DNA from: Pseudomonas viridiflava
GTDB lineage: Bacteria > Pseudomonadota > Gammaproteobacteria > Pseudomonadales > Pseudomonadaceae
Reading direction: 5' to 3'
NCBI GenBank assembly: GCA_900596015.1
Contig: UVIF01000012.1
Coordinates: 186,001 to 250,000 of the forward strand
Length of the DNA stretch: 64,000 nt
The position numbers and the translations under genes are program-made. The notes under the pieces are model-generated. The model saw only the letters and a list, made by a program, of their open reading frames with translations, searched no databases and was not told the origin of the DNA. Positions 11,277 to 14,920 of the stretch are shown here, one piece after another (position 1 is the stretch's first letter; each line of letters starts with the position of its first letter).

Positions 11277-11896
11277 GCGTTATCGCTGGAATTGTGGGAT
11301 CGGGCGAGGCGCTCAATACGCGCCTCGAGGCGTTCGACGTCGACTTTCAAAGCATCCAGCTCACTGAAACGGGCCTGGGCTTCCTGCTCGCCCACCAATG
11401 TACGCGCTTCCTCGGCCAGGTATTCGCCCAGGTTCTGCGTCGCCGTGGCCAGGCTCTGACGGGTCCAGCCCGTGCGGCTGCGCAAATGCCCGGCCAACAA
11501 GGCGGTGGGCACCGGACCCAGCCAGCGTGAGACTTCGTATTCCCAGTCCAGTTCAAGGTCCTGGAGCACCTTGACCAGGTCCAGCAGCGCGGCGCTGTCG
11601 CCGTCCAGATCGACCTGCGGGCTGTGCAGCACCGCGGTCTTGTCCTTGCGCAGTGCCAGTTGCACCAGGCTGGCAGCCGGCGCGCGCAACGTGCAGTCGG
11701 GCGGCGTGGCCCACTGCTGGGCCAGCATCAGGCCATTGGCACTGGGCAGCATGTACAAGGTAAACGAAGGCTGGCGGCCCTGGATGGCAATCACCTTGCC
11801 ATGCAGGTGTGCCAGACGCGGCAACGCGGTGGCGTCCAGGCGCAGCACACGGTTCAGACCATGTTCGACACTGGCGATCAGGCCGCCGAGCAGCAT
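11273..11896 (-). CDS. ubiJ: Ubiquinone biosynthesis accessory protein UbiJ (SCP2 domain)
   Basis: 207 residues from ATG 11896. The N-terminal half is an SCP2-type lipid-binding domain ([23 protein letters not shown]), the middle has [18 protein letters not shown], and the C-terminus is a coiled coil ([19 protein letters not shown]). UbiJ is a structural lipid-binding part of the soluble Ubi complex. A longer open frame runs upstream through ubiE, but the ATG that overlaps the ubiE stop (TGATG) gives the family length. Confidence 0.92.
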
Positions 11897-12666
11897 CAGG
11901 GCTTGATCCCGCGGTGCAGGGCAACGATGCCACTGGTCATGTTGTGGTACGTGACGCGGTCGAAACCGGCCTGCACCATCATGGCCTTGAGGGTTTCCTG
12001 ATCGGGATGCATGCGGATCGATTCGGCCAGGTAACGGTAGCTCTCCGAGTCGTTGGTGATCAGCTTGCCGGCCAGTGGCATGAACGCGAAGGAATAGGCG
12101 TCGTAGACCTTGGACATCAGCTTGTTGGTAGGCTTGGAAAACTCCAGCACCAGCAAGCGTCCACCTGGCTTGAGCACGCGCAGCATGGAAGCGATGGCCG
12201 CTTCCTTGTGGGTGACGTTGCGCAGGCCGAAGGCGATGGTCACGCAATCGAAGTGATTGTCGGGGAACGGCAGCTTTTCCGCATCGGCCTGGACGAATTC
12301 GATGTTGCCGGCCACGCCGCGGTCGAGCAGCCGGTCGCGACCGACCTTGAGCATCGAGGCATTGATGTCGGCGAGCACCACCTGGCCGGTAGGCCCTACC
12401 AGATCGGAGAACTTGCGTGCCAGATCGCCCGTGCCGCCGGCGATGTCGAGCACGCGGTTGCCCACGCGCACGCCCGAGAGCTCGATGGTGAAGCGCTTCC
12501 ACAGCCGATGCATGCCGCCGGACAGCACGTCGTTCATCAAGTCGTACTTGGCCGCTACCGAGTGGAACACCTCGGCGACCTTTTCGGCCTTCTGGCTTTC
12601 CGGTACGTGCTTGTAGCCGAAGTGAGTGGTGGGTTCGGCATCGCCGCCTTTGCGCTGATCATTCAT
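11896..12666 (-). CDS. ubiE: Ubiquinone/menaquinone C-methyltransferase UbiE
   Basis: 256 residues. SAM-dependent class I methyltransferase with motif [13 protein letters not shown], the [20 protein letters not shown]-terminal signature and the GLRNVTHK motif of the UbiE family. It adds the C2 methyl group to the ubiquinone ring. The start at MNDQRKGG is preferred over an ATG 45 bases upstream because it matches the family length. It heads the ubiE-ubiJ-ubiB-hisI-hisE-tatABC-rsmE run. Confidence 0.96.
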
Positions 12667-12795
12667 ATCGCTGTCACCAGGAAAAATTACGCACCATTCT
12701 AAGCCGCACAAGGGCGCTTTGTCTTGGCACGATGGATTGCCGGGGCAACCGGGTTAAACTGTGCGCCATTGAACCCTTACTTGTTGGAATCTCCG

Positions 12796-13074
12796 ATGAC
12801 CCAGATCAACGTCGAACGCAAACACAATCTGGGCCGCGACGCGGCGCGGCAGAAAGCTGAAGTGGTGGTACAGAAGCTGATCGACCGCTATGACGTGCAG
12901 GCTACCTGGCAAGGCGACACGGTGGCGGTCAAGCGCAGCGGTGCACAGGGCACCGTGCAGATCGACGACGAAGCGATTCGAATCGATCTCAAGCTGGGCA
13001 TGATGCTGGCGATGATGAGCGGCACCATCCAGAGCGAGATCGAAAAGGCCCTGGACAAGGCCCTGGCGGCCTAG
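12796..13074 (+). CDS. Polyhydroxyalkanoic acid system family protein
   Basis: 92 residues; starts MTQINVERKHNLG with the conserved ARQKAEVVVQKLIDRYDVQATWQGDTVAVKRSG and ends with a helical EIEKALDKALAA. The family is named for its usual place beside the PHA synthesis genes; its biochemical role is unknown. It is divergent from ubiE, the standard arrangement. The usual neighbours on the other side (phaC1-phaZ-phaC2-phaD, phaF, phaI) are absent. Its TAG stop lies inside CTAG, which is also the stop of the opposing DUF971 gene. Confidence 0.85.
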   Translation: MTQINVERKHNLGRDAARQKAEVVVQKLIDRYDVQATWQGDTVAVKRSGAQGTVQIDDEAIRIDLKLGMMLAMMSGTIQSEIEKALDKALAA

Positions 13075-13448
13075 AGCATCAACCTCACCACGGATTCGGC
13101 GGGGTCGCGGGATTTGCCGGCGGCACGCAACTGTTCCAGGTAGTCGGTCCAGAGCTGCTCCTGGCGCAGCGCCAACTGGTACAGGTAGTCCCAGGTGAAC
13201 AGGCCGCTGTCATGGCCGTCGTCGAAAGTCAGCTTCAGAGCGTACTGGCCAGCCGCTTCCACCTTGGTCAGGCCGACCCCCAGTTTACCCACCTGCAGAA
13301 TCGGCTTGCCGTGGCCTTGGACCTCGGCGGACGGCGAGTGCACGCGCAGGAACTCGGCGGGCAGGTGGAACACCTCGTCGGGGCCATACTTCAGGCTCAA
13401 GGTCTTGGAGGCCTTGTGCAGATTGATGGCGCTGGGGATTCTGGTCAT
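13071..13448 (-). CDS. DUF971 (gamma-butyrobetaine hydroxylase-like N-terminal) domain protein
   Basis: 125 residues. The single domain resembles the small N-terminal domain of gamma-butyrobetaine hydroxylases: LPAEFLRVHSPSAEVQGHG then KLTFDDGHDSGLFTWDYLYQL. The stand-alone form lacks the oxygenase part, and its function is unknown. The start at MTRIPSAINLHK is used; the longer open frame upstream runs into a REP element. It follows hslU, its normal neighbour, and converges on the PHA-system gene with a 4-base overlap of the two stops. Confidence 0.85.
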   Translation of the reverse strand: MTRIPSAINLHKASKTLSLKYGPDEVFHLPAEFLRVHSPSAEVQGHGKPILQVGKLGVGLTKVEAAGQYALKLTFDDGHDSGLFTWDYLYQLALRQEQLWTDYLEQLRAAGKSRDPAESVVRLML

Positions 13449-13582: not shown

Positions 13583-14920
13583 TTACAGGATGTAACGCGA
13601 CAGGTCTTCGTTCTGCGCCAGCTCACCCAGATGGCTGTTCACGTACTCGGCATCGATCTGGATCGGTGCCTCGCTGTGCGCAGCAGCCATGTCACCGGCG
13701 CTGAACGAGACTTCCTCCAGCAACCGCTCGAGCAGGGTGTGCAGGCGGCGCGCACCGATGTTCTCGGTTTTCTCGTTGACCTGCCAGGCGATCTCGGCCA
13801 GGCGCTTGATGCCTTCGGGCACGAACTCGATGTTCAAGCCTTCGGTCTTCAGCAACTCGCGATACTGCTCGGTCAGCGATGCATGTGGCTCGCTGAGGAT
13901 GCGCTCGAAGTCCTGCGGGCTCAACGCCTTGAGTTCAACGCGGATCGGCAGACGACCCTGCAATTCGGGAACCAGATCGCTCGGCTTGCTCAGGTGGAAC
14001 GCACCCGAGGCAATGAACAGGATATGGTCGGTCTTGACCATGCCCAGCTTGGTGTTGACCGTGCAGCCTTCGATCAGCGGCAGCAGGTCGCGCTGTACGC
14101 CTTCGCGAGACACATCGGCACCGCCGACATTGCCGCGCTTGGCGACCTTGTCGATCTCGTCGATGAAGACGATACCGTGCTGCTCGACCGCCTCGAGCGC
14201 CTTGGCCTTGAGCTCTTCTTCGTTGACCAGGCGACCAGCCTCTTCGTCGCGGACCATTTTCAGCGCGTCCTTGACCTTGAGCTTGCGGCTCTTCTTCTTG
14301 CCCTTGCCCATGTTGGCGAACAGGCTCTGCAGCTGGTTGGTCATTTCTTCCATGCCGGGCGGTGCAGAGATGTCCACGCCACCCATCTGCTCGGCCACCT
14401 CGATCTCGACTTCCTTGTCGTCCAGCTGGCCTTCGCGCAGGCGCTTGCGGAACAGCTGACGGGTATTGGAATCGTTGCTCACCGGCTCTTCGTTGAAGCC
14501 TGCACGGGCGGCGGGCAACAGCGCATCGAGAATGCGCTCTTCGGCCGCATCCTCGGCGCGGTGGCGAACCTTGACCATTTCCTGCTCACGCAGCAGCTTG
14601 ATGGCTGCATCGGCCAGGTCGCGGATGATCGACTCGACATCGCGGCCGACATAGCCGACCTCGGTGAACTTGGTCGCTTCGACCTTGATGAACGGCGCGT
14701 TGGCGAGCTTGGCCAGACGCCGCGCGATTTCGGTCTTGCCGACGCCGGTAGGGCCGATCATCAGAATGTTCTTGGGCGTCACTTCGACGCGCAGTTCTTC
14801 GGGCAGCTGCATGCGCCGCCAGCGGTTGCGCAGGGCAATGGCGACAGCGCGCTTGGCATCGTCCTGGCCGATGATGTGGCGATTGAGTTCGTGGACGATT
14901 TCGCGGGGGGTCATGGACAT
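13583..14920 (-). CDS. hslU: ATP-dependent protease ATPase subunit HslU
   Basis: 445 residues. AAA+ unfoldase of the HslVU (ClpYQ) protease: Walker [10 protein letters not shown], the pore-loop GYVGRD, Walker [12 protein letters not shown], sensor arginines in the C-terminal domain and the C-terminal hydrophobic tail (LSRYIL) that inserts into HslV. The acidic I-domain spans roughly residues 110-240. Paired with hslV 87 bases upstream in the same direction. Confidence 0.98.

Follow-up and report, generated by a model that had tools for sequence, protein, structure and literature searches.

Loss of the class II PHA cluster beside a retained 'PHA system' gene in Pseudomonas viridiflava, and a probable PHA-independent role for that gene

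Medium-chain polyhydroxyalkanoate (PHA) storage is commonly regarded as typical of Pseudomonas, and one of the genes ordinarily found at the edge of the PHA synthesis (pha) cluster, here called gran, carries the family name PHA_gran_rgn after PHA granules. In the window considered here, a stretch of 64,000 nucleotides from a strain of Pseudomonas viridiflava, gran abuts a DUF971 gene directly and nothing of the cluster lies between them. The locus thus raises two questions: what became of the pha genes, and why a gene named after PHA granules should outlast them.

The gran frame (12,796..13,074, forward strand; 92 aa) is intact and ends in a TAG stop at 13,072-13,074, and the DUF971 or GBBH-like_N gene (13,071..13,448, reverse strand; 125 aa), likewise intact, ends in a TAG stop at 13,073-13,071, read as CTA on the forward strand. 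The two genes converge and have the four bases CTAG (13,071..13,074) in common, with no sequence between their stops. These coordinates bear out the sequence-only reading, which had reported both a 4-base overlap supplying TAG stops on the two strands and a clean absence of the pha cluster. Profile searches place the gran product above both model cut-offs of its family (PF09650, 104.7 bits vs 26.6; TIGR02610, 136.4 vs 40.25) and the DUF971 product above that of PF06155 (88.7 bits), the latter protein matching none of the NCBIfam models, and the C-terminal residues of both proteins resemble those of PhaC-positive relatives. On the gran side the junction is followed by ubiE (11,896..12,711, reverse strand), which is divergent from gran and whose frame, listed from a TTG codon, probably starts further in; on the other side, a gene at 13,583..14,920 (reverse strand), which from its translation we take to be hslU, lies upstream of DUF971 and is read in the same direction.

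The class II mcl-PHA locus of Pseudomonas, phaC1ZC2D-phaFI, whose make-up in P. putida KT2440 is described in part of PMC11103573, fills the DUF971-gran interval in PhaC-positive relatives. Among the loci compared, DUF971, phaC1, phaZ, phaC2 and phaD run in one direction and are followed by phaF, phaI and gran in the other, an order that matches the earlier expectation of a pha cluster between DUF971 and gran in a comparison drawn from genus relatives other than PAO1 and KT2440. In five close PhaC-positive relatives (L072, L094, L050, L062 and L081), the DUF971 and gran stops are 7.5-9.0 kb apart. In this strain, by contrast, none of the six class II genes was detected. Its genome (G000) comprises 4,513,310 bases (4.51 Mb) in 24 contigs and is rated 100% complete; across it there were no matches to PhaC (PhaC_N, PF07167) or to the PF05597 phasins (phaF/phaI), the best PhaZ match (TIGR02240) reached 54.5 bits, far under the cut-off of 250.6, and PhaD returned only weak TetR matches (best 33.9 bits, query residues 4-67) in a search run without PhaD-positive control genomes. 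Because PhaC, phasin, PhaZ and PhaD are absent or weak in the whole genome, the cluster appears to have been lost rather than moved. The sequence-only reading had left loss and relocation as alternatives and had proposed a genome-wide search for phaC, phaZ, phaF and phaI; that search found none of them, and it favors loss.

Absence of the PHA synthase recurs in the genus. Our sample of 398 Pseudomonas genomes, one per species and including this strain, was divided by profile search into 365 with PhaC and 33 without (20 of these listed as such, 13 inferred by absence from the 365 positive rows), and PhaC is present in 353 of the 385 genomes with completeness of at least 90% and contamination of at most 5%. 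One of the 33 PhaC-less genomes, G124, is rated 86% complete. On a maximum-likelihood tree of UbiE (140 rows, 31 of them PhaC-less), PhaC must change state at least nine times; of 1000 bootstrap trees the first 300 were counted, and 299 of them need nine changes and one needs eight. The tree is that of a single gene, and because its rows were picked partly for lacking PhaC, the count describes events in the sample rather than a rate. The tree suggests that PhaC was lost separately about nine times in the genus. Losses seem likelier than gains, because the gene order is shared and PhaC occurs in early-branching rows. This strain and Pseudomonas baltica form one clade (SH-aLRT 100), itself nested in a clade of nine rows (SH-aLRT 97) whose remaining seven are PhaC-positive.

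The spacing between the gran and DUF971 stops differs among the PhaC-less lineages: -4 bases in this strain and P. baltica, 12 in G188, 15 in G020, G429 and G391, 91 in G440, 95 in G068, 189 in both G226 and G228, and 857-1049 at ten loci where a phasin persists. Several individual loci deserve separate mention. At L034 (G026) DUF971 is inverted, so that it shares the strand of gran and is found some 145 bases beyond the gran stop, a rearrangement having accompanied the loss. The 189-base gap of L167 and L169 (G228 and G226) contains an inverted repeat, seen by eye, which resembles Pseudomonas REP elements. Five genomes (G003, G358, G388, G135 and G186; loci L037/L136, L137, L140, L153 and L154) have a single PhaC match, with phaZ and phaC adjoining gran; the stretch examined gave no phaC2-specific match and none to phaD, phaF or phaI, an arrangement that may reflect partial loss or replacement. 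Lastly, L061 (9501-19144), from Pseudomonas karstica, has phaF and phaI at a distance of about 8.4 kb from DUF971, and the stretch examined gave no phaC1, phaZ, phaC2 or phaD match.

How secure, then, is the reading of the junction as the trace of a lost cluster? Relocation of the pha genes within the genome or onto a plasmid has some precedent in the PhaC-less genome G001, where a phasin (contig C1) lies apart from gran (contig C4), but it is scarcely credible for G000, which has neither PhaC nor a phasin, a PhaZ match far below cut-off, and PhaD matches that are only weak TetR ones. The division of the genome into 24 contigs leaves room for an artefact of assembly; yet the join is internal to a 439 kb contig, both reading frames finish intact at it, and P. 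baltica MBT-2 (G043; L031/L043) has the same 4-base overlap with base changes of its own, TTAA replacing CTAG and both stops being TAA, in a region about 96-97% identical to ours. Since that assembly was made separately, a misassembly appears unlikely, and taking these points together we regard the chance of an artefact as close to negligible. The comparison of this junction in related species, which had also been proposed, thus recovers the overlap and not the CTAG itself, which is not conserved because P. baltica has TTAA in its place. That same substitution bears on whether the overlap was itself selected, e.g. as a regulatory palindrome or a common end signal. The genes do converge, and a simple scan found no terminator-like site between them, but TTAA in P. 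baltica and stop spacings of 12, 15, 91, 95 or 189 bases in other PhaC-less lineages make selection of the overlap very unlikely, and the idea of CTAG as a special palindrome was ruled out by this substitution and by the other spacings in the other losses.

A simpler origin for the palindrome lies to hand. In 78 named PhaC-positive loci, DUF971 ends in CTC-TAG in 46, CTC-TAA in 24, CTC-TGA in 4, and CTT followed by TAA or TGA in 4, and because CTC-TAG is so frequent, the palindrome is probably older than the deletion and was already present on the DUF971 side. Of the PhaC-positive relatives sampled, the closest (dw_358) has CTT-TAA at this point and MWU16-30317 has CTC-TGA, so that the ancestral CTC-TAG depends on other relatives. 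The gran stop is TGA in 57 of the 60 PhaC-positive named loci with gran in the stretch, and TAA in the other three. As in other overlapping stops of convergent genes, the four shared bases have the form YTAR; what differs is that the overlap here marks the place from which the pha cluster was lost. Such a deletion recurs and is nothing out of the ordinary, and the palindrome likely has a simple origin. Microhomology at the join was also considered and dropped, the shared bases being limited to about two (CT), which chance would allow; a longer imperfect match with L050, GCGGsCT, was noticed by eye.

The second question concerns gran, which is present in 394 of the 398 genus genomes: 362 of the 365 PhaC-positive and 32 of the 33 PhaC-less. 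Retention of the PHA-system gene without its partners, remarked upon earlier for this locus, is therefore the rule for PhaC-less genomes of the genus. Persistence merely through recency of the loss might be read from our strain and P. baltica, whose gran genes differ by 2 bases, a difference so small that this pair alone says little on retention; however, in more distant PhaC-less pairs, where dS reaches about 1.1, the gran protein persists and dN/dS does not exceed 0.36, and with 32 of 33 PhaC-less genomes retaining the gene we consider recency improbable as the explanation. Across 15 pairs of PhaC-less genomes, partly non-independent and possibly spanning time before the loss, dN/dS of gran was 0-0.36. 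Such near-constant retention without PhaC suggests that gran probably has another job. G023 is the sole PhaC-less genome without gran, and it has no PF05597 phasin either.

Our preferred account, to which we assign a probability of roughly 0.9, is that the cluster was lost in an ancestor shared with P. baltica, that the loss left a join at which the two genes share their stops, and that gran was kept for a PHA-independent role. The common ancestor of the two strains would have lost the class II cluster (phaC1-Z-C2-D and phaFI), the last deletion placing the final sense codon of gran, GCC, in frame against the stop of a DUF971 gene that ancestrally may have ended CTC-TAG. The own stop of gran, ancestrally probably TGA, would have been removed and a TAG taken from the join, as CTAG supplies a TAG stop in either direction of reading. 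Neither gene would have lost its usual C-terminal residues, an outcome expected if deletions that reach further into gran or DUF971 are purged. The cluster may have gone in a single deletion or in several steps, courses that are indistinguishable in this clade because no intermediate stage is known there; other lineages have partial states. Thereafter gran would have been kept for its PHA-independent role, probably one in common with phasins.

The phasins follow a looser pattern. An intact PhaF-like frame of 246-322 codons is found in 20 of the 33 PhaC-less genus genomes, with Ala/Lys/Pro-rich tails (weakest in L207 and L217) reminiscent of the histone-H1-like tail of the phasin PhaF, whose KPAA tail is described in PMC9239181 as thought to bind DNA. 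A second phasin is intact in G437 and broken or partial in G425, G236 and G138. PhaF is missing from our strain, one of 13 PhaC-less genomes without a phasin, 12 of which retain gran. Beyond the genus, 44 other genomes of the order were sampled, the weak PhaC_N matches of G086 and G102 not being scored as PhaC. In this sample gran is associated with phasins, which occur in 9 of the 11 gran-positive genomes vs 10 of the 33 others (p 0.0045), and not clearly with PhaC, which occurs in 4 of 11 vs 6 of 33 (p 0.24), or 4 of 11 vs 8 of 33 (p 0.46) when G086 and G102 are counted. In a class sample of 312 genomes, where 17 of 78 PhaC_N matches (including that of G650) were weak and not scored, gran is present in 17 genomes besides G000, and strong PhaC in 6 of these 17 vs 55 of the 294 gran-negative genomes (p 0.11). 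A weak link between gran and PhaC is possible, since the odds lean that way in both the order and class samples. In seven of the 11 gran-positive class genomes without strong PhaC, a PF05597 phasin lies no more than 1.5 kb from gran, in a scan that left out the gran neighbor at L197 (G583), and none of the six class loci with gran and PhaC gave a PhaF/PhaI match beside gran. In two of those seven, L194 and L195 (G684 and G696, both PhaC-less), the phasin beside gran weakly matches the histone-H1-like family HC2, below cut-off.

The AlphaFold (AF2) model of gran, a confident one (pLDDT 90.4), consists of a strand, a helix, four strands and a helix, and appears to resemble PA4090 (2jpi), the best Foldseek match (E 5.2e-4; TM 0.58/0.56), as well as small helix-grip (START/SRPBCC) and Pcc1-like proteins. 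The 50 VIA-align rows listed, Z 8.2-11.1, are spread over many families, and because so many score alike the fold search assigns no function; the best match of the gran sequence to solved structures, at E 0.95, was unusable. Unlike what the name of its family implies, gran is retained here without a PHA synthase, and the genomic distribution suggests that the 'PHA system' label is probably a misnomer and that the gene probably works outside PHA storage. Our best guess is that gran serves as a PHA-independent partner of phasins, and we argue that it may also work alone, because 12 PhaC-less genomes have gran and no phasin. More tentatively, and at somewhat less than even odds, gran and the PF05597 phasins, some with histone-like tails, may constitute a PHA-free module acting on the nucleoid, another inclusion or membrane lipid, to which the synthase is a dispensable add-on. 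If so, gran would be a small helix-grip-like member of that module, retained almost throughout the genus as a near-core gene under a name that misleads.

In the titles and abstract openings of the open-licence literature, there is no report of pha cluster loss across Pseudomonas, nor of a tested function for PF09650, and none of that literature was found under the locus tag PA5062. PF09650 is listed among four phasin-related families with mostly uncharacterized members (PMC4117528, in part), and the passages of PMC5658603 consulted do not treat phasins without a synthase. An Antarctic strain with a complete class II set, in which PHA was undetected in the test used, is described in part of PMC13101481, from which it follows that the genes do not guarantee the phenotype. 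The PhaC-less genomes can be viewed as natural knock-outs that reveal 'PHA' proteins with other work, gran being nearly always retained in them and a PhaF-like phasin often, and they render the PF09650 annotation testable and caution against inferring PHA production where only phasin or gran genes are seen. The result of value is that gran, whose name refers to PHA granules, has outlasted PHA in almost all genus genomes where this can be checked.

Two further observations concern the surroundings of gran. The gene adjoins ubiE in 38 of 39 listed genus loci, some from the same genome, and a ubiquinone link was entertained for this reason and dropped: among 18 class loci, ubiE was found in the stretch for only one, the window's own. 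The exception within the genus, L179, is centered on a second, diverged gran (G150:C21:71310-71585) that is 31% identical to the gran of the window and sits between gran and the PhaF-like phasin of its genome. Another second gran (G431:C19:71691-71966) is 29% identical to that of the window, and both of these genomes lack PhaC.
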